Translations under genes and position numbers: made by a program | Notes under the pieces: generated by a model | Database searches by the model: none | The model's input: only the letters and a program-made list of their open reading frames with translations | What the model was told of the DNA's origin: nothing | Part shown: piece by piece, positions 4,315 to 23,718 of the stretch | Numbering within the stretch: the first letter of the stretch is position 1 | How the letters are laid out: each line of letters opens with the position of its first letter | Source of the DNA: an uncultured Alistipes sp. | GTDB lineage: Bacteria; Bacteroidota; Bacteroidia; Bacteroidales; Rikenellaceae | Reading direction: 5' to 3' | Assembly: GCA_949296295.1 (NCBI GenBank) | Contig: CASFOM010000061.1 | Location: 1 to 36,609 of the forward strand | DNA length: 36,609 bases

Positions 4315-4349
4315 TATTCGTCTCGATTAAAAAATAATATTAGTCTATG

Positions 4350-4357
4350 CAAAGATA
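4350..4357 (-). promoter_or_regulatory. Candidate -7 box for tkt
   Basis: On the minus strand this reads TATCTTTG, an exact match to the Bacteroidetes -7 consensus TAnnTTTG. It sits 36 bases before the tkt start codon. No good -33 TTTG is found at the usual 19-21 base spacing, so the call rests on the -7 box and position only. Confidence 0.5.
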
Positions 4358-4490
4358 TAAAACTGTCTGTAAACTAAAGATAATTTTTAAGAAACTCCGA
4401 ACTTCCTGTTTATATCCGTTTTTTCATCTATATAAAAACTTCTCAAAACAAGATTTATTTTTTCTTCATCTTTCCAAAAAGACTATTCAA

Positions 4491-4531
4491 ATTCAACAAT
4501 TCATACTACTATTACCTACAATTCAACAATT
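4491..4531. repeat. Short direct repeat in the tkt / glycosidase gap
   Basis: ATTCAACAATT occurs at 4491-4501 and again at 4521-4531, exactly 30 bases apart, in the AT-rich gap between the end of the glycosidase operon and the start of tkt. Two copies of 11 bases in AT-rich DNA may be chance; an operator for tkt or a slippage product are alternatives. Confidence 0.3.
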
Positions 4532-4551
4532 TCATTTTCATAAATAAATAT

Positions 4552-6897
4552 TTAAATATGAATCGACACTTTAGACTTTTTCAACCTCACCAATAAATAT
4601 TCCTCATCAAAATTTTGCATTTTTGATAAAATATCCATTTCAACCACATCATTATTTTCAATTACTCCATTTTTATAAAGAACTGACTTTCCATTTAACG
4701 AAATAAAAGATTTTATCCGTTTTTTAGGCAAGGCAACAATACACTCTTTCCCTGTATCATTTTCAACGAATAAACTCCACGAATCATCCGAAACAGACAC
4801 ATTGACATCCAACTCTTTACCAAAAACAGGAACCGTACACTTAACCCATTCCAAACTACCTAATTGGGGTTTAATCAATATTTTTTCCCAACCGGCTTTC
4901 AAGGGAGAAACGCCTGCAACATATCGTGATAAAAGAGCCAATGGGCTACCTGCCCACCCATGATTGATACTTCCTCCTCCATAACCACCAACAACCCAAT
5001 CTTCCCATAAGGTCGTCAAAGGACTATAAACCATAGAACCATATCGTTTCTTCATTCTTGACAATCCCTGACTTACATATCCATTAGCAAACAAAGATTC
5101 CAAAATATATCGTTCCATATAGGGACTTGCCTTTTCATAAGACATAAGATATTCAACTACTTTCTCTTTTTGTTCTTCAGTAGCAAAATCTGCCAATAAA
5201 GCTAACCCATTAGCCCTATCATCCGTTTTCCCTTGAAATTGGGGACTTTGAAAAACATCTCCTTTCCAAAAAATTTTCGAAGAAATCTGCCTAACTAAAT
5301 TCTGACGTGCTTTATAATCATTTACAGACTCCTCATCGCCCAACAATTCTCCCATTTTGATAGCACTTTCGAGAGCCAAACAATACCAGGCATTCTCGAT
5401 AACAGGTACATCTATTTCATCCCCCCAGTCAGCCCAATCCCAACCTCCGGCACGATGTTTAAGCAAACCTGTTTCATCAATCTCCCATAAAGACAAATAA
5501 CGTTTCACTTTAGGATATACATACTCAATACAGGCTCGATCCCCTGAATACCAATAATAACTCCAAAATCCATATTTACCAATAGAAGCTAACATCTGTA
5601 AAGGTAATTCCAAATTCCATGAGCCTGCAGGAACGGGTGAAAATAAAGTTCCGTCAGGAAGTTGCCAATCGACAAGATTCAGTATCGCTTTTTTTACTGC
5701 TGCATAACCATTCGTATCACAAGAGTAAAAAATCTCATGCAATATAATAGCTGCATCTCCCCACCATTGAGAACGCTCTCTATCCGGATCCTGAATAGCA
5801 TCACGCATATTCAGATTCATGGTATTCAAAGATTTTTCCCACAGTTGATCATAAAAAGAGTCACTACATTGAAATTTTCCTATATGGCGAGTATTAAAAC
5901 GGGTTTCTCGATAACCTACATCCAAACATTTCACGCCTTCGGGTAAAGTATAAATAACGTTATGTCCATTTACATAATTAGGCATCTCAAAAGTTTGTAC
6001 CCCTTCTTTCGTCATGTATTCCGCACGAACATTGTATTCGCTTCCTCCTTTATAATTATCTGTACGAATATCTATCAATGCTCCTGCTTCTGCCTTCAAT
6101 TTAATATAAGGAGTAACGGAAATATTTTTAGGTAACTTACCCGTAACTACATTTTGTTTCCCTGTTTTTTCAGAAGTAACTTTCTCATAAGATATGATAC
6201 CCATATCTTTCCAATTCGGGAAAGGTCTTTTATATAATTTGTTCCATGGAGCACATGGATAAGTTCCTAAAACAACGGCACTACTCCATAACGAATCATC
6301 AAATCCTGATGCCTGCCAAGAACCAAAATCTTTTCGCGCATCAAAACAAACATTTGATTCTGGAAGACGAAAATTCGGTTTAGGGTCTCCTGTCTCTCCA
6401 TACGAAGGATGAATAACAGCTTTCCAACTCCCATCCGTAACTATTTCTTGATCTCCTGTCTTTATTTTGACCAGTAGTCCACTTTTCCCACTGTCTTTAT
6501 GACAAAATCCGTCTTTCCCCCAGTACCACAACAAAACTGCTATGGTATTATTTCCTTTCTTCAAATAATCAGCAATATCTATCTCATCATAATAAGTATC
6601 ATTGGGATTGGGACCTCGTTTTAATGCTCCTTCGAAAACTACCAGTTTACCATTAATCCACAACCAATATTTTGAATCGGCGGCAATAATCATCGGGACA
6701 TAATCCTGACGGTTCTCTACTTGTATCTCTTTCCGAAAACAAATCCACTGATTCTCTTTCTGCAAGATAGAATCTATTGAAATCCACTGTAAATTATCCT
6801 GTTCCGGTAATATGACATGGTTAGTAGTCGATATCTGAGAATAAACATCCGGGAAAAAAAGGAAGGACAATATCCAACACAATACAAATTTCTTCAT
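4552..6897 (-). CDS. Secreted GH78-family alpha-L-rhamnosidase
   Basis: This protein belongs to the GH78 / Bac_rhamnosid family, whose inverting enzymes remove terminal alpha-L-rhamnose. I chose the ATG at 6897 because it opens a clean signal peptide (MKKFVLCWILSFLFF...YSQ); a start at 6936 would add 13 residues in front of it and overlap the previous gene. Numbered from 6897 (781 residues), the N-terminal half holds beta-sandwich carbohydrate-binding regions (WLWINGK near 80, FDDSLW near 200). The catalytic (alpha/alpha)6 barrel carries DPDRERSQWWGD at about 370-381, with the family's acidic pair, and TTLWEDW at about 628-634, which supplies the catalytic base Glu, followed by SINHGWAGSPLALLSRYVAG. 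Both catalytic motifs look intact. It is the last gene of the five-gene operon. The exact substrate cannot be read from the sequence. Confidence 0.85.
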   Translation of the reverse strand: MKKFVLCWILSFLFFPDVYSQISTTNHVILPEQDNLQWISIDSILQKENQWICFRKEIQVENRQDYVPMIIAADSKYWLWINGKLVVFEGALKRGPNPNDTYYDEIDIADYLKKGNNTIAVLLWYWGKDGFCHKDSGKSGLLVKIKTGDQEIVTDGSWKAVIHPSYGETGDPKPNFRLPESNVCFDARKDFGSWQASGFDDSLWSSAVVLGTYPCAPWNKLYKRPFPNWKDMGIISYEKVTSEKTGKQNVVTGKLPKNISVTPYIKLKAEAGALIDIRTDNYKGGSEYNVRAEYMTKEGVQTFEMPNYVNGHNVIYTLPEGVKCLDVGYRETRFNTRHIGKFQCSDSFYDQLWEKSLNTMNLNMRDAIQDPDRERSQWWGDAAIILHEIFYSCDTNGYAAVKKAILNLVDWQLPDGTLFSPVPAGSWNLELPLQMLASIGKYGFWSYYWYSGDRACIEYVYPKVKRYLSLWEIDETGLLKHRAGGWDWADWGDEIDVPVIENAWYCLALESAIKMGELLGDEESVNDYKARQNLVRQISSKIFWKGDVFQSPQFQGKTDDRANGLALLADFATEEQKEKVVEYLMSYEKASPYMERYILESLFANGYVSQGLSRMKKRYGSMVYSPLTTLWEDWVVGGYGGGSINHGWAGSPLALLSRYVAGVSPLKAGWEKILIKPQLGSLEWVKCTVPVFGKELDVNVSVSDDSWSLFVENDTGKECIVALPKKRIKSFISLNGKSVLYKNGVIENNDVVEMDILSKMQNFDEEYLLVRLKKSKVSIHI

Positions 6898-6929
6898 AAG
6901 CAAAAACAGCAATTTACATTTCAATACCT

Positions 6930-9431
6930 TTACCATGAGCTACCCCACTCCTCAGAGAAACCAGATTTTGAAATTGTCTCATAAATATCCTCTTGCAACA
7001 AGGCGTTCTCATAAAGCAATGGTTCCTGATTAGAAACCTTTACAGAAATAATCTCTCTTTCATTTCTATCTCTGTTTTCCAATACCAATACATACAGATT
7101 TTCACTTTTTTTGAACAACTGTACTTTGGAATTTGTAGAATGAACTTCATTTAAAGGCTTTTTGGAATACAGATAAATCCGTCCACTACGAGCTCCTGCT
7201 TCAGGGAACAATTCTATGGTTATTCCCATCTTGTCGGATACTATATTTTTTATTTCAGCAGTTCCCATACTGATATGGAGATTAGACCCAATAACTGTCG
7301 GGACATCCGTTACCGGAGTCAATCGCAACAATTCATGTTCATACGGCAAGACTTGTGATGCTGTATAATTGATATCGGAGATTCCTTTATAACTTTCATC
7401 CCAAAAAGACCACACATGAAATTTGGTTCCCAACTCTTTAACAGGAATGTGTTTAATCCCCAAATCCTTTTTATGTTTACTGTCCGGATTCCAAACAATA
7501 ACATTTATTGCATTTCCCCAACTCCTTTTAACCGTATAACCGAATTCTTGTCCATAAATATCCCATCCTCCTGTATATGAAACGCCTTTTTCCTTGGTTA
7601 TGGGATAAAGAATCTCCATCATGCGTATATGATCATCACTTCGATATTCATTCTGGTATAATTTATCGGAAGTTAGAGCCAAACCTGCATAAATACCGAC
7701 AAAACTGTGAAAGGTTTGTAACTGTTTGGGACGAGTAGCCCCTGTAAATCCCGTATAGGTAACATCAGGATCTCCATGACATAAAATACCATTTTCATAA
7801 CATTTATTACTCATGGACAATATGGGATACAATAATCCATGAATATCCTTAGGTAAATTATCTGAAGCCATACTTCGAGCAAAACCTTTTCCCGGAGTAC
7901 AATCCGTTCCTATACGATCTGCATCAATATAAGGGAGCATGGAACGTTGATCACTGATACCACAAGCCAACAAATAACTATCTTCCCCTATCCCTTCTCT
8001 ATAAAGACGGAAAAGTTCGCGTTGAGCTTGAAACCGTGTCTTTTTAGAATCATAAAAACGTTTTGCTCCAAAAGGTATTTGAGAAAAATCCAGTTTAAAA
8101 TACCGATACCCATTATCCCTATGCTGTCTAAGAGATTTTAATATGAACTCACTGACTTGAGGATGAATAGGATCTAATCGATCCTCCGACGGATGGTTTA
8201 CTTTATAATTCACGTAACAACTCATAGGAAAAGGTCGTTCTTTTTCACCACAAACTCCTGTAATCATATCACATCTGCCGGGAGAAAGCCAAATACCGGG
8301 CATCATTCCGTATTCTTTAATGGTTTGAGCCAAATGACTTAATTGTCCTGTAAATTTTTTATTTTCATTCCAATTTCCTCGAAAAACCTGCCAACCATCA
8401 TCTATCTGGACAACATCGAAAGGAAGGCGATCTCTTTGTTGATAAACATAATCCGATATATTCCGAATATCATCGGGGGTGACTCGTAATCCTGCCCGAT
8501 ACCAACTACACCAACCATAAACAGGAGTAGTATTTAATGAAACATTACATATCTGAGCAATCCACTTATTTCTGATTTGTTGAGCCTCTCCCCAAGGTTT
8601 CGCTATAAAAAGCACCTCGTCACTTATTCTACTTTCCCCCGGTTCCAATAATACCTCACTCATATCTGATTCCACCTCCATTTGAATCCTGACATCGTCT
8701 ATTTTCATCTCAAAATATACATCAGATATAGTATCTACAGCTGCAAGAGTAATTCCCTGTTGAGAACCTTCCTGATACAAGGAAGCATCATTCAAATAAC
8801 AACGAGAAAAAGGGTCTTCCGCCTGTTTTTGAAGACCTCGTCGAATGAAATAACTTCTGGAATAGGCTTTTTCCGACGCTAATTCCAATTCTGAGGGAAG
8901 CCGTCTATCCAATGTACCCGTCCGCCGAGCTTCAATATCCGTAGTAGAAAGCATCCATTCGTCAGCTTTTCCGGAAACTTCGAATAATCCATCCAACAAA
9001 ACAATTTTCTGTAAATAAATACTATCTGTTGACTGGTTTACCAAACACCCTCTCAAAGAAAAAACCTCATCATTAACTTGAGTAAAGTAACATATCAACT
9101 CATAAGGTCTTCCAATACCCCAATGATACTTTTCTCTTGTCGCTTCCCCTAAAGGAGTTACAACGGATTCCTTCGTAATAACAGGCTTTCCTTCCGGGAC
9201 AATCCGCATACACTCCCCTTTGTGGTCTATAACTGCATAAAATTTCCCTTGAGTAATGGCTATTTTGGGAACGGAGAAAGAACTGTTATTCAATGTCAGT
9301 TCATGGGACCATTTAGCAGCATAAGATGAAAACAAGTAAAAAGATAAAATGATGGTAAGAAATACCCTTTTCTGTTTTTCAAATCGAGTTATACTATACA
9401 TTCCTTTTGTGTTGCTAACGTTATTTTTCAT
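6930..9431 (-). CDS. Exported GH36-like alpha-galactosidase (clan GH-D)
   Basis: This 833-residue protein has an N-terminal hydrophobic stretch (VFLTIILSFYLFSSYAA, about 23-39) that fits a signal peptide. It may really start at the internal Met11. An N-terminal beta domain is followed by a TIM barrel with clan GH-D hallmarks: YGWCSWYR (305-312), VQIDDGWQ (341-348), GIWLSPGR (379-386) and YFKLDFSQ (444-451), in which Asp448 is the expected nucleophile. RIGTDCTPG (506-514) offers Asp510 as the likely acid/base. GH36 members hydrolyse alpha-galactosides or alpha-N-acetylgalactosaminides with retention; which of these applies here is not clear. A C-terminal beta domain completes the protein. The following GH78 gene starts about 32 bases after this stop codon, or overlaps it if the longer start is used. 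It is a distant paralogue of the gene at 14876. Confidence 0.8.
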   Translation of the reverse strand: MKNNVSNTKGMYSITRFEKQKRVFLTIILSFYLFSSYAAKWSHELTLNNSSFSVPKIAITQGKFYAVIDHKGECMRIVPEGKPVITKESVVTPLGEATREKYHWGIGRPYELICYFTQVNDEVFSLRGCLVNQSTDSIYLQKIVLLDGLFEVSGKADEWMLSTTDIEARRTGTLDRRLPSELELASEKAYSRSYFIRRGLQKQAEDPFSRCYLNDASLYQEGSQQGITLAAVDTISDVYFEMKIDDVRIQMEVESDMSEVLLEPGESRISDEVLFIAKPWGEAQQIRNKWIAQICNVSLNTTPVYGWCSWYRAGLRVTPDDIRNISDYVYQQRDRLPFDVVQIDDGWQVFRGNWNENKKFTGQLSHLAQTIKEYGMMPGIWLSPGRCDMITGVCGEKERPFPMSCYVNYKVNHPSEDRLDPIHPQVSEFILKSLRQHRDNGYRYFKLDFSQIPFGAKRFYDSKKTRFQAQRELFRLYREGIGEDSYLLACGISDQRSMLPYIDADRIGTDCTPGKGFARSMASDNLPKDIHGLLYPILSMSNKCYENGILCHGDPDVTYTGFTGATRPKQLQTFHSFVGIYAGLALTSDKLYQNEYRSDDHIRMMEILYPITKEKGVSYTGGWDIYGQEFGYTVKRSWGNAINVIVWNPDSKHKKDLGIKHIPVKELGTKFHVWSFWDESYKGISDINYTASQVLPYEHELLRLTPVTDVPTVIGSNLHISMGTAEIKNIVSDKMGITIELFPEAGARSGRIYLYSKKPLNEVHSTNSKVQLFKKSENLYVLVLENRDRNEREIISVKVSNQEPLLYENALLQEDIYETISKSGFSEEWGSSW

Positions 9432-9503: not shown

Positions 9504-12254
9504 TTAATGACCTTTGGAATTAATTTCCACGCCATTAATCTGAAACTCATAGTGTCCTGAGGGTACCAAACATACCGTCTCCTTATCATGATTGTCAATC
9601 ACTACAAAATCCTTTATTGCATCAAGAGGTGTTCCTTTTTCTAAAATCATATTCTTATTCCCTGTCGGAAACCATATTTCAGCACTACTATTAGCAGGAA
9701 TAGTTACATTCAATATTATCCTATCACCATCTTTTTCCCATGAGCTCTGAATTTCTCCATACATATTTCGAATGGAAGCTCGAGCATTTTGAATAGGCAA
9801 AGCATAAGCAGGTTTGATTTTAAATCGCTTCATTCCTCCATATTCAGGAATTACACGAATTCCTGCTATTCCCTGATAAAACCAACTGTCCAAAGAGGTA
9901 AAACAAGAGTGCATGTGAGAAAAAAATCCATTCCATTGTTCCCACCAAACAGTAGCATCCTGCGACAACATATATCCCCAACCCGGATATCGTTCATGAG
10001 CTACTAATCGATACAACAAATCACTTCTTTCTGACTCTTGTAGATATTGTATCAAAAAATAGGTACCAAACATTCCTGTTTCAAGAACTCCTTTCTCTTC
10101 AATGTTCGCTTCCAATTTTTCCCATAATTGATTTTTCAATGAATCCGGAACAACGCCAGTCATTAATGGCATAATTAGATAAGTCTGTTCTTCACTGACA
10201 TAACATCCGGTTTGTTCATTATAAAAGGCGTTATGAATCAATGGTCTTATTTCTCCCAATTTATTAGTACACAAAACGATATCTTCTGTTTTTCCCAAAA
10301 CTTGAGCTGCTTGCCGTTGTATATCCCACAAATAAACCCGATAGCAATTATTAAAAAATTCTGCCATTTCTTTCGACGGCCAATTATTGGTATCCATACC
10401 TCTTCCTGGCGGAACCCAATCACCTATGGATTGCCACGGCTCATTTCCAGACCGGAAAATTCCATCCACACATCTCGATTCAAAATTTTTCAAATAGAGC
10501 ATCATGGAAGGATAAATCTCTTTCAAAAAAGCAGAATCTTCATAATATAAATAATTTCTCCAGGTAATAGCCGCAACAAGCCCTGCCCATCCGGGACCGC
10601 CGCCTCCCTGATAATTCGGAGCAACATTAGGCATTGCACCCGTTGTCTTATCCTGACGCAACACCCAATCCTTCACAAATTTTCGGTAAAACAACGGCAT
10701 ATAATAATTCATAATAGAACTTTCCACCGATACTTGACCATCTCCATAACCTAAACGTTCCCGCGTTGGACAATCCACATATACAGCCCCTTGATTCAAA
10801 CAACGCATTGTCCAATCATTTATCTTATGCATTCTCATTAATAACGTATCGGAACAATCAAAAGAACCTGCCAGTTTCAAATCGGTCTCTACAAGAAATG
10901 CGACTGCATCCAAGGGTTTTTCTTTGAGACCACGCACAATGATATATCTGAATCCCAACGGATTGAATTTCGATTCGAAAACCTCTTCCCCTTCTCCTGC
11001 AGCAATGTACATACTGTGTTGATTATATGTGGTATAACGAACCGTATCTTTCCCAAAACGGAACAGTGATTCTCCTCCACATTCCCGAACGACTCCAGCT
11101 GGTGTATTCACTGCTCGAGGGGAATTCCAACGGACATCAGAGAAATACAACATCACCGTATCACCCCGTTGTAATGAGGGAAAAGTTATTTTATATCGTC
11201 CGGTCAATGCTGTCCCAAAATCAATTTCATAACAATCATCTTCCAATGCTGTTATTGACTTATATCTTATTGAAGAATTCTCCCGATTCAACTCACAAGG
11301 CTGAGCTTCCAATACAGGAGACGGCTGTGGTAACACCTGAGCATTAGACCAAGCAGAATCATCAAATTTCAAAAGATTCCACTCCGAATTAGCATATCGG
11401 GCATCATAACATTCTCCTCCGAATTGAGACCAATCCCAACTTCCTAAAGTCGAATAACAACTGGCTGAAACCTTCCACGAGTTATCTCCGTCTATAATAA
11501 TATTCCCTTCCTTTTGTGGTATTTCACAATGAAAAGCAACCGGGATAGGACCCATACCATACCATCCCTTGCCTAACCAAATGGCAAATATATTCTCTCC
11601 CTTTCGAAGATATTTTTTTATATCATAAGTCACATAAAAAGAACGTTTGTCCTTACCAGCCACCGATGGACTTAATACATCATTCCCTACTTTCTTCCCA
11701 TTAATATACAATTCATAATACCCGGGAGTACTTATATCTGCATAAACATTTTCAGTAGGAATATTCTCCAAAAAACACTTTTTACGAAACCAAATAGACC
11801 CTACACAATCTACCCTATCGTTAGGATTGGTATATCCCATCCATTTCATTTCAGGATTTTTCAACACTTGACGCCATTGCGCCGTTTGACTCCATGCTGT
11901 TTCCCTACCCTGATTATCCCATATTTTTACTTTCCAATAATAAGATTTATACGGTTTTAATGTTTCTCCGGAATAAGCAACTTGTACAGAACGATCCGAC
12001 ATAACTTTTTCCGAATCCCATATGTTCCCTATATTTTTATCCAATAATCGTTCATCATCAGCAACAAGGATACGGTATGCCTGTTGCGATACATTTCTTT
12101 CACCACTCACGATTTGCCATCCCAAGAAAGGAGTTTCATTTTCAATAGCAATGGGATTTGTACGATAATCACATGTAAGATTATTCACTTCTATATTCTG
12201 TCTGCATCCTACAAACAGCAAAACTCCGAGAAAATTCCACCATAAACATTTCAT
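9504..12254 (-). CDS. GH78 alpha-L-rhamnosidase, probable lipoprotein
   Basis: This 916-residue protein has the full classical Bac_rhamnosid layout. The start MKCLWWNFLGVLLFVGC ends in a lipobox-like LFVGC, so Cys17 is the probable lipid-anchored residue. An N-terminal fibronectin-like domain (DYRTNPIAIENETPFLGW, 29-46; YYWKVKIWD, 105-113) is followed by beta-sandwich domains (YELYINGKKVGNDVLSP, 180-196). The catalytic barrel shows DCPTRERLGYGD (494-505), with Glu499 the expected general acid, and TVWWEQW (768-774), with Glu772 the expected base. A C-terminal beta domain (GIRVIPEYGGMKRFKIKP) follows. The enzyme should release alpha-L-rhamnose at the cell surface or in the periplasm. It lies third in the operon, 68 bases after the unrecognised gene and 72 before the GH36-like gene. 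It is only distantly similar to the other GH78 protein of the cluster, so the two may act on different linkages. Confidence 0.9.
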   Translation of the reverse strand: MKCLWWNFLGVLLFVGCRQNIEVNNLTCDYRTNPIAIENETPFLGWQIVSGERNVSQQAYRILVADDERLLDKNIGNIWDSEKVMSDRSVQVAYSGETLKPYKSYYWKVKIWDNQGRETAWSQTAQWRQVLKNPEMKWMGYTNPNDRVDCVGSIWFRKKCFLENIPTENVYADISTPGYYELYINGKKVGNDVLSPSVAGKDKRSFYVTYDIKKYLRKGENIFAIWLGKGWYGMGPIPVAFHCEIPQKEGNIIIDGDNSWKVSASCYSTLGSWDWSQFGGECYDARYANSEWNLLKFDDSAWSNAQVLPQPSPVLEAQPCELNRENSSIRYKSITALEDDCYEIDFGTALTGRYKITFPSLQRGDTVMLYFSDVRWNSPRAVNTPAGVVRECGGESLFRFGKDTVRYTTYNQHSMYIAAGEGEEVFESKFNPLGFRYIIVRGLKEKPLDAVAFLVETDLKLAGSFDCSDTLLMRMHKINDWTMRCLNQGAVYVDCPTRERLGYGDGQVSVESSIMNYYMPLFYRKFVKDWVLRQDKTTGAMPNVAPNYQGGGGPGWAGLVAAITWRNYLYYEDSAFLKEIYPSMMLYLKNFESRCVDGIFRSGNEPWQSIGDWVPPGRGMDTNNWPSKEMAEFFNNCYRVYLWDIQRQAAQVLGKTEDIVLCTNKLGEIRPLIHNAFYNEQTGCYVSEEQTYLIMPLMTGVVPDSLKNQLWEKLEANIEEKGVLETGMFGTYFLIQYLQESERSDLLYRLVAHERYPGWGYMLSQDATVWWEQWNGFFSHMHSCFTSLDSWFYQGIAGIRVIPEYGGMKRFKIKPAYALPIQNARASIRNMYGEIQSSWEKDGDRIILNVTIPANSSAEIWFPTGNKNMILEKGTPLDAIKDFVVIDNHDKETVCLVPSGHYEFQINGVEINSKGH

Positions 12255-12322: not shown

Positions 12323-14824
12323 TTATTCTGTCAAGATAAATTTAAAATACCGACGTTTCATCGATTTATCTCCTGACTTTATATTATATGTAATCTGATA
12401 AGTTGAATCTATATTTGTATCAACTTGCCAATAATCATTTCCATAACTTTCTTGAACAATCGGTTTCCAATCTCCTCCTGTCTTCTCTAATAAGACCGGT
12501 CGTTTATAATGTGATAATCCGGTAATAGTCAGCGGAAGATAACCTATTCCTCCCTTCACCGAAAAAACGGCTGTATCACATTCTGATTTTATAACTATTG
12601 GATACGAATGCAAAACATCTCCCTTAATTCCATTTATTTCAAGATCGTTATTAACTGATTCCCGCCATACTAACTCCCACGGTTCCCTATTTTCTAAATA
12701 TTGAGCAAATTGAAAATCCGTACCATAATAATCTTTTCTTTCTACAGGAAAGACTAATAACTCTATTTCTGCTTCTATAAAATCCCCTTGTTGTAAGGAA
12801 TGACAGTCTTCTGAAAGGGTAATTGAAATAATAGAACTTTTAGGGCCATGTGTTCCGGTTACTGAAGGTAATTCCTGCCAATAAGGGGGCATATTTTCTT
12901 GTCCATTAATTTTAGCATTCCATTTTCGGAGAATCATCCCTCTGTTTCCTCCTTTAAAATGACCTTGTTGCTCGGGAGACAGTTGAGAGTCACTAAAAGA
13001 AAACCACGGCATTTGACCTGAACAAGCAGTTAATTTTCCAAAATAATCCATTTCCTTATCCGGAGCGTTCAATGCTTCCCATTCTTGAAGCAATCCTTTT
13101 TTATTTCCAGTAGCCAAATGTCTCGAAAAAGAATAGTGATAAGTAGCCGCAGCCATTTGTATTAAATCCAATCGATTAAATACCACCTTCTCATTTACAT
13201 CCATACGAAGTTTGTAAATACCCCGAAGATAATCGTCAGACCTGAAAATCGTCGTTACATACGAAAAATCTATTTTATGATTAAGCATATGACCGGAATA
13301 AACCACCTCTGTCAAATTTGGACAATTACGTTTATATTCCGTCTTTACCGAAGTATGCCAAGCTCTTCGACCATCTTCTTTTGTCAAATTAAAGAAATCA
13401 GCACCTCCGACATTGCCTGTCCATTTCCCCTTATCTCCTTGAGGAGAAACGACATAAAGAGGTCTAATATCCAAAACAGGAGCCCCGGATTGATCCAAAT
13501 CCGGCTCATAACAAACACTTTCCCCCCAGGCACCCATTGCTGATTGATCCCATTGTTGGTTTTGGCCCCAACCAACCAAACACAACTGAGCATGGGAAAC
13601 AGCAGGAATATTTCCCCAAAAGGCATTCACAGAGACATACTCATACTTAACTGTACTTTTAGGAGGAATTACCAATTCGGTTATACCATGATACCAAGGT
13701 CCCCGATAACGGTGAGCATCATATTGATTAAAATCGACGGTATGCCAATTTTTTGACAATTGGACGGGAATACCTGTCGGGAATCCTTCCATATCTCTTA
13801 TGATTGCAGAAATCCCGGTAATCCCAAACACCTCCTTTTCTTTGGAAAAATTCAATCGAACACGTTTTTCAATATCATCTGTATTTTCAACAGAAAAAAC
13901 TACTTGCTCCATCCGTTGGTTATCTTTCTGGAAATTCTCTCCCACGGCATCATTACGTAATTCGATTCGATACCACCCCATGTCCGGTTCGTATTGTACT
14001 TTAAGGGTTGTATCCAACGGCAGCAATTGGTGTGCCTTAACAACGACAGGACTACTTTCCTGCACAACAACTTCATCTTGCTTCCTATCAATCTGCTGAA
14101 TTGGATATATAATCAAACCCAATTTTACTTTTTCTCCTGCTTTTAATTTTTCAGAAGAAACATATTTGGCGGTAACTTGTTGACCATTTATATCCAACAT
14201 CGTCGATTCCGGAGTTTTCATAATAACAAAACCATTCCCGGTTCGGGAATTTTTATAGAGAGCAGAGGTTGTACTTTTTTTACTTAACTTATATTCTGAA
14301 GGGACAATAAAATTTACCACTGCAGTATTAGCTCGTAAATTTACTGAAGGTAATAATTGAAGCATTAATAATAATCGGTCTCCATAAACGGCAATATCTA
14401 ATCCACTGTGATGAGGGTCACAACCTGTTAATCCAGGAATCCAATTGATATAACGATGTTGCAAGAATCTCCCGCTATGGATTAACTGACAATCTTCTGT
14501 CCTTCCTGACGATTGGGTACAAGGGAAAAGAACGCCAGCTGTCTCTATTCCAAATGACAACTGAGGGACGAGTTCATCTTCCAATTTTTCATTTGTAAAA
14601 GAAAATGAAGTAAAATTCAATCGATCATAATCAAACACAAACTTGAACTGTGAGGTTTCTACGGCAAACAAATGGGGTTCAGACTCCTTTACCGAATTTA
14701 CCCACCACATATAAGTATGATTATAGGACTGCCCATTAGTAATATGACATGAAAATACAGCTGAAAAAAGGAAGAACAAACCTCTTTTTAGCAATCTCAA
14801 AATATTTTGTCCCATTGAAAACAT
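12323..14824 (-). CDS. Large exported protein of unknown family in the glycosidase operon
   Basis: I do not recognise the family of this 833-residue protein. The first 30 or so residues (LLKRGLFFLFSAVFSCHITNGQ) look like a signal peptide; Met4 is an alternative start. The rest has no membrane segment, is rich in aromatic residues and short hydrophobic strands, and reads like a multi-domain beta protein. Notable stretches are a central GWGQNQQWDQSAMGAWGE followed by CYEPDLDQSG (roughly 420-450), with several acidic and Trp residues close together, and CSGQMPWFSFSD further on. This density of Trp, Asp and Glu would suit carbohydrate binding or catalysis. It sits between a GH36-like and a GH78 gene with 51- and 68-base gaps, so it is very likely co-transcribed and acts on the same glycan. 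It could be an uncharacterised glycoside hydrolase, a polysaccharide lyase or a binding protein. Confidence 0.6.
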   Translation of the reverse strand: MFSMGQNILRLLKRGLFFLFSAVFSCHITNGQSYNHTYMWWVNSVKESEPHLFAVETSQFKFVFDYDRLNFTSFSFTNEKLEDELVPQLSFGIETAGVLFPCTQSSGRTEDCQLIHSGRFLQHRYINWIPGLTGCDPHHSGLDIAVYGDRLLLMLQLLPSVNLRANTAVVNFIVPSEYKLSKKSTTSALYKNSRTGNGFVIMKTPESTMLDINGQQVTAKYVSSEKLKAGEKVKLGLIIYPIQQIDRKQDEVVVQESSPVVVKAHQLLPLDTTLKVQYEPDMGWYRIELRNDAVGENFQKDNQRMEQVVFSVENTDDIEKRVRLNFSKEKEVFGITGISAIIRDMEGFPTGIPVQLSKNWHTVDFNQYDAHRYRGPWYHGITELVIPPKSTVKYEYVSVNAFWGNIPAVSHAQLCLVGWGQNQQWDQSAMGAWGESVCYEPDLDQSGAPVLDIRPLYVVSPQGDKGKWTGNVGGADFFNLTKEDGRRAWHTSVKTEYKRNCPNLTEVVYSGHMLNHKIDFSYVTTIFRSDDYLRGIYKLRMDVNEKVVFNRLDLIQMAAATYHYSFSRHLATGNKKGLLQEWEALNAPDKEMDYFGKLTACSGQMPWFSFSDSQLSPEQQGHFKGGNRGMILRKWNAKINGQENMPPYWQELPSVTGTHGPKSSIISITLSEDCHSLQQGDFIEAEIELLVFPVERKDYYGTDFQFAQYLENREPWELVWRESVNNDLEINGIKGDVLHSYPIVIKSECDTAVFSVKGGIGYLPLTITGLSHYKRPVLLEKTGGDWKPIVQESYGNDYWQVDTNIDSTYQITYNIKSGDKSMKRRYFKFILTE

Positions 14825-14875: not shown

Positions 14876-17140
14876 CTATCTTATTCGTAACAATACGGCC
14901 ACTTTATCCTGCATATTTGACAAATTAAGATCCCATAAACCATCCGTTCTTTTTGTTAAATTGGCAGAAGCTCCCTGTACTGCTGCTATACGGATACCAT
15001 CTTCTGCATAAAGAATAATCTTCCCATTGCGTAATGATACAGGAGTAAGTTCAATCCACATTTCTTCTTTTGCCATATTGAAAGGAGACGTATTCATTCT
15101 CCATACGTTACCAATCTCCTTCTCTCCCTGTAATAAATGTAAGTTCGTAGAAATAATCTGTATTTTTTCATTTGTTACAGGTCTTACTGCCATATGTAAG
15201 CAAGTGTGAGGTTTCTGATTCAAAACAGATATATTTCCTTCCATGATTCCCATATAACTATCTGTCCAAAAATTATAAACATGACACCTATTTTCTGTTC
15301 TTAAACCAACCTCTTCAAATTCAATGGTTCGTGTTTGAAGTGAATCAGACCAATTAAATAAGGTAACCAAAGAAGAACGACGGTCAAACCTATCTATTGG
15401 ATAATAAAACAATGAAGGAATACCTATTTCAGGAGCTGTCATATAATCAGCTATTTCTGCCGCCTTACCCGCAGTAGGAAGGGCTTTTGCCAACATATTG
15501 TAACGACTCGGAGTAAGAGATTGTAAAGAATCGGAAAACATAACATAACCTCCTCCCAAGAAATTGGCTGTCACATGCATCTGCAACTCCTCTTCCGACA
15601 AACTACTTTGTTTTTCCCGTAAATTAAGACAATCCGGATCATTTACCCACCAACGACGATGAAATGGCAAATGCAAAATACTCGACCTACAACCATTTAA
15701 AACAGACTCCCAGTTAGGATTGACATCTGGGCCTGTTCTCCCCGCCCTGACACAACCTATAACAAGAGGAAAAACGCCTTTATCTCCCTGACAATTAGCT
15801 ATAAACACACTATCTCCAACAGCATTAGCAATAACTTTATAAAAATTTCTCATTGCCTGAAAAGAAGTAATACTACGGTCCGAACGGTTACTTCCCGGTT
15901 CTGTATTAAAATCCAATTTAAAATATTTAAAGCCCCAATCCTTTACAATATAACGAAACAAAGTATCGATATGGGCAAGAAAATCTTTATTCGTCAAGTC
16001 AAATGTATGTGTTTTCTCTCCCCAATTATACATGGTTTTATAGTAAGAGCCGTCCTCATTCTTATCTACCCATTCCGGGACTTTTTTCATAATATCAGAA
16101 TTTTCATGAACCAGTGCAGCTGCAATCCACAATCCCGGTATCAATCCATTATTTTTGCATACATCGGTTATATATCTCATACCATGAGGAAAAAACGGAC
16201 GCAATGTTGTCCAATCTCCCGGTAAAGTAAAATATCCGTCATCCAACAACATCAACTGAAAAGGTAAATCTTTAATCTCTCCTGCCTGACGAGCAAAGTC
16301 CACAACAACATCTTCCGTAATGTCATTATCTATAAACGGATTAAAACCATACCAACTACACCAACCGGCAAAAGATTCTCCATCCACCACAGCTCCAACT
16401 TCTTTCCCCGTAGCTGAAATCAATTCTTGTAAATCCCCCCATACTTTCCCCTTCTTTATATGTAACGCTTCTGCATAACGAGTTTCACCAGGTTTCAAAT
16501 CTACATCCATATATACAGAAGCCGTAAAATGAGGTTTATCCTGCGAAAAATCATAAACATAAGTTCCCCAAGCCTGTTTTATTGAATATCCTAACGTATA
16601 TTCTTCCCGAGAATCTTTATTATGCAAACACAGAAAAGATTGTGCCGACAATTGTTTATTTTCTTTTTTTGCCGCTATTCCCAACCACTCCAACTTATCT
16701 ATATTTCCACACAAAGCTCTTGTATTCTCCCATTCACCTTTAAATTGAGGGCCTAAAGGGAGACTCAATAAAGCTACATTATTAAATGTAATTATTTTAG
16801 GAGATTTATTTTTTACCCATCCATTTACTGTTGTCCAATTACAAGAATCATAAGTAATCACCTCAACACCAAACTCCAATTTATCTTCTGACTGAAATTG
16901 ATAACTTCGGCACTGACCACTTCCAAATGTAGAAGTAATGGGTTTTACCGACTCCCGGAAACAAGACATATTTATCGTCGAATACTCTTTTCCATTACAT
17001 ACGAATATGGTTTCCGCATCCTTGATTATTTCTTCTCCAGACACAGGGTCCTCAATTGAAATAGTCGATCTCTCCTGAGCCAATCCCAATAGAGTTAATA
17101 ATACAAAAGAACAAACGCAAACAGATACTTTTTTCAGCAT
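14876..17140 (-). CDS. Secreted GH36-like alpha-galactosidase (clan GH-D), first gene of the operon
   Basis: This 754-residue protein starts with a clear signal peptide (VCVCSFVLLTLLGLAQ). The TIM barrel shows clan GH-D features: AGWCSWYGFNPF (258-269), LMLLDDGYF (296-304), LIPGLWIAA (333-341) and KYFKLDFNTEPG (405-416), with Asp410 the expected nucleophile. AGRTGPDVNPNW (466-477) contributes Asp472 as the probable acid/base, and WWVNDPDCL is another conserved-looking site. These match GH36/melibiase-like proteins, so alpha-galactosidase or a related alpha-glycosidase is the best call; the exact sugar is uncertain. A C-terminal beta domain completes it. It is the promoter-proximal gene of the five-gene cluster: a 411-base intergenic region with direct repeats lies upstream, and the unrecognised gene follows after 51 bases. 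Confidence 0.8.
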   Translation of the reverse strand: MLKKVSVCVCSFVLLTLLGLAQERSTISIEDPVSGEEIIKDAETIFVCNGKEYSTINMSCFRESVKPITSTFGSGQCRSYQFQSEDKLEFGVEVITYDSCNWTTVNGWVKNKSPKIITFNNVALLSLPLGPQFKGEWENTRALCGNIDKLEWLGIAAKKENKQLSAQSFLCLHNKDSREEYTLGYSIKQAWGTYVYDFSQDKPHFTASVYMDVDLKPGETRYAEALHIKKGKVWGDLQELISATGKEVGAVVDGESFAGWCSWYGFNPFIDNDITEDVVVDFARQAGEIKDLPFQLMLLDDGYFTLPGDWTTLRPFFPHGMRYITDVCKNNGLIPGLWIAAALVHENSDIMKKVPEWVDKNEDGSYYKTMYNWGEKTHTFDLTNKDFLAHIDTLFRYIVKDWGFKYFKLDFNTEPGSNRSDRSITSFQAMRNFYKVIANAVGDSVFIANCQGDKGVFPLVIGCVRAGRTGPDVNPNWESVLNGCRSSILHLPFHRRWWVNDPDCLNLREKQSSLSEEELQMHVTANFLGGGYVMFSDSLQSLTPSRYNMLAKALPTAGKAAEIADYMTAPEIGIPSLFYYPIDRFDRRSSLVTLFNWSDSLQTRTIEFEEVGLRTENRCHVYNFWTDSYMGIMEGNISVLNQKPHTCLHMAVRPVTNEKIQIISTNLHLLQGEKEIGNVWRMNTSPFNMAKEEMWIELTPVSLRNGKIILYAEDGIRIAAVQGASANLTKRTDGLWDLNLSNMQDKVAVLLRIR

Positions 17141-20104: not shown

Positions 20105-20878
20105 TTATTGTTTTTGAGCAATAATAATGACAGGATTGTAAGTAAGAGGCACTTCTTCCGAAGGAAGTCCAAAACATTGAATATACTTTTGACAAAATTC
20201 TTCCACTGTTTTTTTATTCCAATTATAAGAAGCAATCCCATTTACGCCTGTTTGGCGGATATGTCGCAATACATCAAGTGGATGTTTGAAACGAAGTTCT
20301 TTATTATAGGTTTCCTGAAATAAGACATCATAACCCGCATCCGAAATAAAAGAAATCAACGTATCCAATAAGGTATATTCAAGACCTATTCCCGTAATTG
20401 ACCGTATCTCATGGAAATTATCAATTCCAAAAGAAGATATGGCCAAGATTCCGCCTCTTTTTTGTTGCAACTTTGAGAAGAATTTTTGCGGATTTTCAAA
20501 CCATTGTAACGCAGAAGCAGAAGCAATTAAATCAAACGGGCCTTGAAAATCCAATATTTCTGCATCTCCCCATTGATATTCCACGGAATAATTTTTCCCT
20601 TGTATAATACAATCAATGAATGGCTGGACATCCTCAACCAAATCATTGATAGTCCATCGAATTTGAGGGAATAAAGGAAGCAGTCTCGAAGTTAACAATC
20701 CCGTTCCTGCGCCAAATTCCAATGCTTCTTGTATTGAATGAGAAGAAGTATATTGTTTAATCAGAACAGCTAATTCAGCACATATTTCTTGTTGTATTAC
20801 AGCATATTTATTATAGGAATAGAGCCGTTTAGCAAAACGTTTTTGTATTAAATCTTTATTTATATGGATTTGATTCAT
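20105..20878 (-). CDS. bioC: Malonyl-[acyl-carrier protein] O-methyltransferase BioC
   Basis: BioC methylates malonyl-ACP with S-adenosylmethionine, disguising it so that fatty-acid synthesis can extend it to pimeloyl-ACP methyl ester, the biotin precursor. The protein (257 residues from 20878) begins INKDLIQKRFAKRLYSYNKYAVIQ, typical of BioC, and has the SAM motif ALEFGAGTGLLTSRL and the segment ASASALQWF. I chose ATG 20878 because it overlaps the bioG stop codon as ATGA, a sign of translational coupling; the frame could extend to 20947, but that would put 23 extra residues inside bioG. It is the last gene of the bioF-bioG-bioC unit and ends before the hairpin at 19971. Confidence 0.92.
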   Translation of the reverse strand: MNQIHINKDLIQKRFAKRLYSYNKYAVIQQEICAELAVLIKQYTSSHSIQEALEFGAGTGLLTSRLLPLFPQIRWTINDLVEDVQPFIDCIIQGKNYSVEYQWGDAEILDFQGPFDLIASASALQWFENPQKFFSKLQQKRGGILAISSFGIDNFHEIRSITGIGLEYTLLDTLISFISDAGYDVLFQETYNKELRFKHPLDVLRHIRQTGVNGIASYNWNKKTVEEFCQKYIQCFGLPSEEVPLTYNPVIIIAQKQ

Positions 20879-21537
20879 GAATTTAATAGTTGTTGAAGGA
20901 TTTTTATCCCATCCATAGAGAAAGGATAATGTTGCCCTGTTTTCCACGAAATAACAGGAACATTTTTTTCATTCCAATAATTCATCACATGAACAGGAGG
21001 GAAAATAGTATCTTGTTCACTGATTATTGCATGATTCCATTGTAACAAATCCGGTAATGAATTCTGAGATAAACGATTTAATGTTTGCAACTCATCTATT
21101 AACTCAGGTAACGTTCTATTGGGCAATTCTTCTTCAGTTACCGGCCATCCATACATATTTCTACAAAACTTTTCCATACCTCCTTTTTCTATTCCATTCA
21201 AAGTGACTTGAAAAATTCGTCTTGGAATACCATATTTATCATCTATGGGATGAGGTGTTCCATTAACAGCTATGATTGGATGACATAAAGACAGTTGAGG
21301 GGATAGATATGCTGCTGCCCATACTCCGAACGACCAAGCAATAACTGCTTTTTCCCGGTAGTTTTTCAATATTGCTGGAATTAAATCTGAATTAGTAAAA
21401 TTTCGATAATCGCATATGGTCAATACATCATATCCTTCCATCTTGAAATTACGAACAGTATGGGAACTGCAAGACCACCCTAAAAAAAGCAGAATGATTT
21501 TGGAATTTCCCTGATGAACAAGCCAATCTAATTGCAT
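20875..21537 (-). CDS. bioG: Pimeloyl-ACP methyl ester esterase BioG
   Basis: This 220-residue alpha/beta-hydrolase matches the BioG (DUF452) family, which replaces BioH in Bacteroidetes and some other bacteria. It removes the methyl ester from pimeloyl-ACP methyl ester to end chain extension. The oxyanion-type segment LFLGWSCSS, the nucleophile motif AWSFGVWAA (Ser69), a possible acid in ISEQDTIFPP and the C-terminal TGQHYPF with the catalytic His are visible. It overlaps bioF by 10 bases upstream and bioC by 4 bases downstream (ATGA), so all three are surely one operon. Confidence 0.92.
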   Translation of the reverse strand: MQLDWLVHQGNSKIILLFLGWSCSSHTVRNFKMEGYDVLTICDYRNFTNSDLIPAILKNYREKAVIAWSFGVWAAAYLSPQLSLCHPIIAVNGTPHPIDDKYGIPRRIFQVTLNGIEKGGMEKFCRNMYGWPVTEEELPNRTLPELIDELQTLNRLSQNSLPDLLQWNHAIISEQDTIFPPVHVMNYWNEKNVPVISWKTGQHYPFSMDGIKILQQLLNS

Positions 21538-22658
21538 GATTTTAAAATAGAAATAAAATTAAGTATATCATCTTCGTTTAGACCTGACGTCAAGGATACC
21601 CGTATCCTTTCCCTGTTTTTAGGAACGGTCGGACATCGAATAGCCGTCACCCAATAACCTCTTTCCCGTAATGCCTTAGCCCATTCCAACACTTGAAAAT
21701 TTCCCGGAACAATAACAGGTAAAATATGTGATTCGGAAGGACAATCGGAAAGGGCATTACGCAATAATTTTCGATTGTTTTCCAATACATTCCGTCGTTC
21801 TGTAAAAGAAGGTAGTTTATCTATTAAAAACTTACTCCACATTAAAGAAATAGGGGGTAAAGCCGTAGAAAAAATCAACGTTCTCATTTTATTGACCAAA
21901 ACCTGTTTGGCCTCTTCACTACAAATAACAAAAGCTCCCTGAGAACAAAGGGCTTTTCCTAAGGTCCCTACAATATAGTCAATCTGTTCCGTTACTTTCT
22001 GTTCTTCGCAGATACCACATCCCGATTCGCCCCGAACACCAAAAGCATGAGCTTCATCAACATATAAACAAAGGTCATACTGTTGTTTTAATTTTGACAA
22101 CTCCTTTAATGGAGCAATATCTCCGTCCATACTGAATATGGACTCTGTAACGACATAAACGCGATTATAATCATTCCTTTTTTTCTCCAACAGTTGTCTT
22201 AAATGGTCCATATCATTATGCCGGAAACGTTCCCAATGACAACGACACAAACGGAGTCCCTCGATAATACTGGCATGAACCAATTTATCTGCGAGAACCA
22301 AATCTCCCGACTCTGTAACGGCCGGTAATAAACCGCTATTTAATAAAAATCCGGAACCCAAAACCAATGCGGACTCTCTTTTGTACAATTGCGCTAAAGT
22401 AGTCTCCAACGCAGTATAATCAACACTGTTCCCTGTCATAAGACGAGAAGATGGATTACTTAAAATGAATCGTTCCTGAAGATTTATCTCATTGAAAAAC
22501 TCGACTTGAAACATCGTATCGCTCAACACCAAATAATCGTTTGAGGATAAATTTAAATATGGTTTGTTTCGATATATTATATATTTTTGCTGAGTATGGG
22601 TTTCTAATAATTGCCGTAAATTTCCTTCGTCTTTTAAGGTCTGGAGTATTTGTTTCAT
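21528..22658 (-). CDS. bioF: 8-amino-7-oxononanoate synthase BioF
   Basis: BioF joins pimeloyl-ACP and L-alanine, using pyridoxal phosphate, to give 8-amino-7-oxononanoate, the first step of biotin ring assembly. From ATG 22658 the protein is 376 residues, usual for the family. LNLSSNDYL, PSSRLMTGNSVDYTALE, GSGFLLNSGLLPA, YVVTESIFSMDGDIAPL, LYVDEAHAFGVRG and GTLGKALCSQGAFV (with the PLP-binding Lys) are all present. The frame extends upstream to 22790, but those 44 residues lie in the promoter region and in bioB and have no family character. Divergent bioB starts 100 bases away. The gene overlaps bioG by 10 bases. Confidence 0.93.
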   Translation of the reverse strand: MKQILQTLKDEGNLRQLLETHTQQKYIIYRNKPYLNLSSNDYLVLSDTMFQVEFFNEINLQERFILSNPSSRLMTGNSVDYTALETTLAQLYKRESALVLGSGFLLNSGLLPAVTESGDLVLADKLVHASIIEGLRLCRCHWERFRHNDMDHLRQLLEKKRNDYNRVYVVTESIFSMDGDIAPLKELSKLKQQYDLCLYVDEAHAFGVRGESGCGICEEQKVTEQIDYIVGTLGKALCSQGAFVICSEEAKQVLVNKMRTLIFSTALPPISLMWSKFLIDKLPSFTERRNVLENNRKLLRNALSDCPSESHILPVIVPGNFQVLEWAKALRERGYWVTAIRCPTVPKNRERIRVSLTSGLNEDDILNFISILKSCN

Positions 22659-22730
22659 CAATTTATTGTTCTTGTTCCGGCAGAGGGAAGGAATGGGTTG
22701 GGTCCCTTTCAAAAAAATCCCTGCCCGATG

Positions 22731-22745
22731 TTTACGGAGGGTAAA
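22731..22745. promoter_or_regulatory. Palindrome between bioF and bioB, candidate operator
   Basis: TTTAC, five bases, GTAAA forms a short palindrome in the 100-base divergent gap, 14 bases before the bioB ATG. It is reminiscent of the ends of biotin-repressor (BirA) operators, which have a longer spacer, so the assignment is only suggestive. Confidence 0.3.
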
Positions 22746-22749
22746 GATA
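22742..22749 (-). promoter_or_regulatory. Candidate -7 box for bioF-bioG-bioC
   Basis: The minus strand reads TATCTTTA, the same variant of TAnnTTTG seen before nfeD. TTTC lies 20 bases further upstream (22770-22773), a one-mismatch -33 box. It overlaps the palindrome at 22731-22745, so a regulator bound there would block it. Confidence 0.4.
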
Positions 22750-22758
22750 ATTTTAAAA

Positions 22759-23718
22759 ATGGAATTAACGAAACTGAAAGAAAAAATCAAAAACGGTTAT
22801 GCCATCTCTTTTGAAGAAGCGATAACATTATCTGAAATAGAAGATAAAGAAGCATTATATGCCTTAGCAGGAGAATTGAGACTTCACTTTTTAGGACGCA
22901 ATTTTGATACCTGTTCCATTATGAACGCACGATCCGGACGATGCAGCGAAGATTGTAAATGGTGTGCGCAATCTGCCTGCTACCATACAAAAGTAGAAGT
23001 TTATCCTTTAGTCTCTTTAAACGAGGTCATGGAACAAGCATGTTATCATGCGAAACAAGGGGCCCGACGTTTTTCCTTGGTCACCAGCGGTCGAGCAGTC
23101 AATTCAGCCGAGACACAACGTTTGGCCGAAATTTACCGCGCAGTAAAAAAAGAAGTTCCTGTCAAGTTGTGTGCTTCATTAGGTTTATTAAATAAGGAAC
23201 AACTACAACTTTTACGGGAAAGTGGCGTAGAACGATATCATTGTAATCTTGAAACAGCCCCTTCTTTCTTCTCTTCCTTATGTACCACACATACGGTAGA
23301 ACAAAAGATACAAACTTTACGTTGGGCACGTGAAGCGGGATTAAAAATTTGTTCAGGAGGAATTATTGGTATGGGGGAAAATATGAAGCAACGTATAGAA
23401 TTAGCTTTTGCCTTACGGGATTTGAAAGCAGATTCTATCCCTGTCAATATTTTAAATCCTATTCCAGGAACTCCTTTGGAAAATATGCCTCCATTAACCG
23501 ATGAAGAAATCTTAGTTACATTCGCTTTATTCCGTATCATCAATCCTACGGCTCATATTCGTTTTGCAGGAGGACGTTCCAAAATCTTACATATTCAAGA
23601 GAAAGCTATGCAAAGTGGTATCAGTGCTGCTTTAATAGGTAATTTATTAACAACTGTGGGACCTGACATGGAAAACGATCGCCAAACCATCGAACGTTTA
23701 GGCTTTGTTATCATGTAA
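22759..23718 (+). CDS. bioB: Biotin synthase BioB
   Basis: BioB is the radical SAM enzyme that inserts sulfur into dethiobiotin to make biotin. From ATG 22759 it is 319 residues. The radical SAM cluster motif is CSEDCKWC (Cys62, Cys66 and Cys69), preceded by CSIMNARSGR, with which BioB proteins align. YHCNLETAPSFF, CSGGIIGMGEN, PVNILNPIPGTPLE and FAGGRSKI follow, all typical. An upstream ATG at 22666 would add 31 residues reading through the promoter region, without family character. It is divergent from the bioF operon, so the two halves of the pathway can share control. No bioA or bioD is present in the window. Confidence 0.95.
   Translation: MELTKLKEKIKNGYAISFEEAITLSEIEDKEALYALAGELRLHFLGRNFDTCSIMNARSGRCSEDCKWCAQSACYHTKVEVYPLVSLNEVMEQACYHAKQGARRFSLVTSGRAVNSAETQRLAEIYRAVKKEVPVKLCASLGLLNKEQLQLLRESGVERYHCNLETAPSFFSSLCTTHTVEQKIQTLRWAREAGLKICSGGIIGMGENMKQRIELAFALRDLKADSIPVNILNPIPGTPLENMPPLTDEEILVTFALFRIINPTAHIRFAGGRSKILHIQEKAMQSGISAALIGNLLTTVGPDMENDRQTIERLGFVIM

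Follow-up and report, generated by a model that had tools for sequence, protein, structure and literature searches.

An exported orphan protein among glycosidase genes of an uncultured Alistipes: a candidate for an undescribed carbohydrate-active enzyme

What does an exported protein of no recognised family do in the middle of a run of glycosidase genes? The question is raised by one gene on a contig of an uncultured Alistipes sp. (CASFOM010000061.1; the 36,609 nucleotides analysed here are called the window). We favour, with a probability of roughly 0.55, the view that its product is a secreted or lipid-anchored, undescribed carbohydrate-active enzyme, given its export-type N-terminus, its glycosidase neighbours, the genomic context of its distant relatives and a set of invariant acids and bases. 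The family to which it belongs probably consists of exported glycan-active proteins, either hydrolases or lyases.

The orphan gene and its neighbourhood

The gene (hereafter the orphan gene; its protein is P0001) and its probable export signal are located as follows.

12323..14824, minus strand: orphan gene, an intact open reading frame with its ATG at 14824, encoding an exported-type protein of 833 aa
14729..14824, minus strand: residues 1-32, probable signal peptide with a basic and hydrophobic N-terminus and a hydropathy peak at residue 16

The coordinates of the gene agree exactly with those of a preliminary description made from the sequence, which had also proposed a signal peptide. The frame is not due to chance: when its bases were shuffled 200 times, no stop-free run exceeded 141 codons, against 833 codons here. 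The protein starts with a basic and then hydrophobic segment, MFSMGQNILRLLKRGLFFLFSAVFSC..., and the hydropathy maximum of the whole protein falls within it at residue 16. Such an N-terminus fits an export signal. Cleavage might occur near NGQ-SY, although this placement is a guess, and VFSC makes no more than a weak lipobox.

The orphan gene lies between a GH36-like gene and a GH78 gene, as had been described, and the run comprises these and two further genes besides it.

14876..17140, minus strand: GH36-like protein (melibiase), upstream neighbour, with a Pfam match; its nearest solved relatives are TmGalA-type alpha-galactosidases
9504..12254, minus strand: GH78 alpha-L-rhamnosidase, downstream neighbour
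6930..9431, minus strand: second GH36-like protein, without a Pfam hit, resembling solved alpha-galactosidases
4552..6936, minus strand: second GH78 alpha-L-rhamnosidase

The five genes thus follow each other on one strand in the order GH36-like, orphan, GH78, GH36-like and GH78. They are separated by 51 bases (GH36-like to orphan), 68 bases (orphan to GH78) and 72 bases to the next gene, and the last two overlap by 7 bases. From the single strand and the short gaps we infer that they form an operon. The run was not found in the relatives examined. Proteins 44-46% identical to the second GH36-like protein (6930-9431) occur in another genome (G944), from which the operon is absent.

Neither SusC nor SusD was found among the scanned open reading frames of the window of at least 150 aa, and no match to SusD (PF07980) was detected in the whole genome of the organism (G000, Bacteroidales, estimated 96.8% complete). 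A genome of the same family (G943) does carry SusC/SusD.

Two scenarios for the origin of the gene were considered. The orphan protein and the second GH36-like protein both measure 833 aa, which raised the idea of a duplication; this was rejected, because a search of the genome with the orphan protein returned only its own locus. A recent horizontal gain is not supported: the GC content (0.37) and GC3 (0.29) are the same as those of the neighbouring genes, and the protein branches outside all its closer relatives. Elsewhere in the window, positions 20105-23718 hold a biotin-type gene group comprising a BioC-like methyltransferase, BioG, a BioF-like class I/II aminotransferase and a BioB-like divergent radical SAM/BATS protein.

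Closer and distant relatives

The preliminary description had recognised no family, and our searches concur. The orphan protein had no match in Pfam or NCBIfam up to E = 10 and none among PDB sequences; the catalytic domain of melibiases (GH36, clan GH-D) gave no Pfam hit in it, whereas it did in the upstream neighbour (14876-17140). A family profile of 17 rows found nothing relevant in the PDB, and all alignment rows searched against Pfam and NCBIfam returned only low-complexity, Cys-rich-linker or chance matches. Nor did the literature searched contain an account of it. By these sequence comparisons, the protein is a representative of a family absent from Pfam and NCBIfam, with no detectable solved relative.

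Closer relatives (group A) are found in 18 other genomes. Two of them, from an uncultured Candidatus Hydrogenedens (L003) and from a Deltaproteobacteria MAG that is placed under Myxococcota in the tree taxonomy (L004), were detected by a pattern scan of genome contigs. A match was then present in 17 of 234 genomes related to that of L004, its own included, and these 17 together with L003 make up the set. Identity between the orphan protein and the members aligned with it is 23-28%, and in the tree its long branch is sister to the 18 rows taken together. Among 60 near genomes there was no relative except one weak C-terminal match. A further 394 genomes of the phylum yielded no relative, and none was detected by these searches in plasmids and viral contigs. 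Where their surroundings are readable, group A genes stand alone and not in glycosidase clusters; neighbours that were checked encode an FG-GAP/MopE protein, a sensor kinase, a thiolase and a YHYH protein. Several group A proteins have lipoprotein-like N-termini and long acidic or Cys-rich linkers.

More distant relatives (group B: L038, L039 and L051) are larger proteins from three Bacteroidales genomes that were first seen as weak matches. L051 comes from the same family as the window organism, and L038 and L039 from another family of the same order. Groups A and B are related with an hhalign probability of 99.3% over 491 columns, covering residues 272-826 of the orphan protein. The C-terminal part was the most readily detected in group B.

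12425..12625, minus strand: residues 734-800, C-terminal stretch

By the hhalign comparison, the core of the protein (about residues 272-826) is common to group B, which occurs in carbohydrate clusters of Bacteroidales: the L051 gene adjoins SusC and SusD genes, and the L039 gene is clustered with two GH78 genes and one GH2 gene. The L039 protein carries, besides the group B domain, an additional fused region some 620 residues long. That region (L039:1342-6135, minus strand, residues about 976-1597) has no Pfam or PDB match, and a second gene of the same cluster (L039:6277-8412, minus strand) also contains a region with no Pfam match. Both may be additional undescribed carbohydrate enzymes.

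Conserved residues, fold and candidate function

Conservation and modelling draw attention to the following parts of the protein.

13742..13795, minus strand: residues 344-361, DMEGFPTGIPVQLSKNWH, in the top rank of conservation with 425-442 and containing K358 and H361
13499..13594, minus strand: residues 411-442, central stretch with H411, W425, D426, E435, Y439 and D442
13463..13471, minus strand: residues 452-454, D-I-R, of which D452 and R454 are common to both groups
12620..13627, minus strand: residues 400-735, all-beta supersandwich, modelled through the equivalent fragment of L004

The three most conserved 18-residue windows relative to group A are residues 344-361, 425-442 (WDQSAMGAWGESVCYEPD) and 411-428, with mean identities of 0.65, 0.65 and 0.62 respectively, against 0.24 overall. 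The latter two overlap the Trp/Asp/Glu-rich stretch singled out in the preliminary description, which we locate at residues 418-435 (GWGQNQQWDQSAMGAWGE), followed by CYEPDLD at residues 438-444. Conservation of the central acids had been put forward as a check, and these acids are indeed conserved, residues 425-442 being among the most conserved windows in comparison with group A. The residues common to groups A and B are Q355, S357, K358, N359, Y378, W403, G404, H411, W425, E435, Y439, P441, D452, R454, W468, N471, D531 and R534. The central stretch of group B differs in length by about ten residues; the placement of E435, Y439 and P441 is agreed by MAFFT and hhalign, while that of W425, S428 and G431 hinges on where the gap is put. 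Of the acids in the central stretch, E435 alone recurs in both groups at a position that both aligners support. The invariance of D442 is confined to group A, and in that group D426 is always acidic, with Glu in one member (L027) and Asp otherwise. Residues suited to catalysis (E435, Y439, D452, R454, K358 and H411) are conserved across both groups.

A full-length model built from three sequences reached a mean pLDDT of 35.8. The L004 fragment equivalent to residues 400-735 gave an all-beta model with a mean pLDDT of 51.5 and a pTM of 0.62; its better core strands have a pLDDT of about 60-90. The central stretch was modelled at 25-30, too low to position its acids relative to any cleft. Compared with supersandwich domains (Foldseek, VIA-align), the fragment reached Z scores of up to 12.7 for PL26, 12.3 for OpgD/OpgG and 10.7 for GH174, which name a fold class and not a family because many unrelated enzymes score nearly equally. 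Further supersandwich matches of this low-confidence model were GH38, hyaluronate and xanthan lyases, GH2, GH36 and mutarotases, and the same fold class also occurs in non-catalytic domains (the GH36, GH38, PL8 and GH2 matches). The modelled part thus appears, within the confidence of the model, to be an all-beta supersandwich. A catalytic barrel or toroid had been expected instead, and no toroid-like region was recognised in the protein.

The proposal that this is an undescribed carbohydrate-active enzyme is thus supported in part. The missing family match, the conserved acids and the carbohydrate clusters of group B speak for it; the predicted barrel or toroid is not borne out by the part that was modelled. 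The lone group A genes, which lie outside glycosidase clusters where their surroundings are readable, and the failure to find the five-gene run in the relatives examined weigh against it.

As to how such an enzyme would work, we infer its catalysis, the roles of individual residues, its substrate and the order in which the enzymes act. Once exported, the protein would bind a rhamnose- and galactose-decorated glycan in a cleft lined by the invariant aromatic and polar residues K358, W403, H411, W425, Y439, D531 and R534. Acid/base catalysis by E435 and the D452/R454 pair would then break one linkage, through hydrolysis or, on a substrate containing a uronic acid, through beta-elimination. The GH78 and GH36-like neighbours would remove the rhamnose and galactose units. 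In its most specific form, the proposal is that the orphan protein, its lipoprotein-like relatives and group B make up a new glycoside hydrolase or lyase superfamily, with a site built on the supersandwich from E435, D452, R454, K358, H411 and Y439 and cutting a linkage in a rhamnose/galactose glycan; we advance this version tentatively, at somewhat less than an even chance.

The protein could instead bind glycans at the cell surface or in the periplasm and catalyse nothing. Its beta domains would hold the polysaccharide, the conserved Trp, His, Asp, Glu and Arg residues would make up a site for the ligand or for a metal, and the protein would feed the GH78 and GH36-like enzymes. The all-beta character of the modelled part is compatible with this, supersandwich domains are often accessory, and the lipoprotein-like N-termini and acidic or Cys-rich linkers of several group A proteins recall surface-display proteins. 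However, the invariant K358, H411, E435, D452, R454, D531 and R534 exceed what a simple aromatic platform needs, and the L051 relative is the sole candidate enzyme beside SusC/SusD in the stretch that was read. A purely binding role is the main rival; we regard it as unlikely, while giving it real weight.

It is improbable, in our judgement, that the protein is a surface protein with no glycan role whose position among glycosidase genes is incidental. The diverse neighbours of group A genes and the long branch that places the orphan protein outside all of group A would suit such a role, but the gene is tightly packed in the glycosidase run and two group B members are found independently in a carbohydrate context. 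Very improbable is a member of PL26, GH186 or GH174 that has diverged beyond recognition by sequence: the fold scores given above for PL26, OpgD and GH174 favour it, but those of many unrelated families are close behind, profile probabilities against PL26 and GH186 are 0.1-0.3% and no Pfam match appears at E = 10.

Returning to an undescribed enzyme as the preferred reading, what the sequences offer is a family that is well conserved, has no counterpart in the Pfam, NCBIfam and PDB sequence libraries and carries a plausible candidate active site. Should the protein prove to be an enzyme, it would found a family of carbohydrate-active enzymes that spans two or more distant bacterial lineages and has named candidate residues. 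Its activity would then also shed light on what is degraded by the GH78/GH36-like run of a Bacteroidales genome in which SusD was not detected.

Comparison with known systems

The PL26 exo-rhamnogalacturonan lyases (PcRGLX/YetA-like) gave the best fold score against the low-confidence model, a Z of 12.7 over 237 residues at an rmsd of 4.5 with many families nearly tied, and they act on a rhamnose-containing substrate, as proposed here. The PL26 proteins that we found differ in length (about 900 aa) and in their set of invariant residues, and membership was rejected at the sequence level (no PF21345 match at E = 10; hhalign probability of 0.1% against six PL26-type proteins). GH174 endo-1,3-fucanases share the fold class with the low-confidence model (Z of 10.7), and searching PDB sequences revealed no relation to them. 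The supersandwich class also takes in galactose mutarotase-like domains, among them the one at the N-terminus of GH36; these gave no Pfam hit, and catalytic and accessory domains both occur in the class.

The comparison with GH186, the beta-1,2-glucan hydrolases OpgD and OpgG of E. coli, extends beyond fold. Like the orphan protein, these were exported proteins formerly without assignment, and the supersandwich class of the low-confidence model is shared with OpgD (Z of 12.3 over 233 residues). In contrast to the 833 aa of the orphan protein, GH186 proteins measure about 500 aa, and OpgG is encoded beside opgH and not beside glycosidases. Neither sequence nor profile comparison matched: there was no Pfam hit and the hhalign probability was 0.16% against a six-member OpgG/OpgD alignment, and GH186 membership was likewise rejected at the sequence level. 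The PL26 and OpgG/OpgD profiles built here match neither group A nor group B (probabilities of 0.1-0.3%), a negative result that is compatible with a common fold since the PL26 and GH186 profiles do not match each other either. Among opgG-like genes, one on a plasmid of Sulfitobacter sp. W074 (L066, record 4020-5180) is annotated as four overlapping fragments and looks like a decayed copy.

Catalysis by OpgD requires Asp and Arg: Asp residues serve as the catalysts, and the enzyme has a D-R pair (PMC10514313). OpgG and OpgD were unassigned periplasmic proteins until they were shown to form a new glycoside hydrolase family (PMC10514313). Although this precedent proves nothing about the protein described here, it makes the idea of an orphan turned catalyst a realistic one by analogy.
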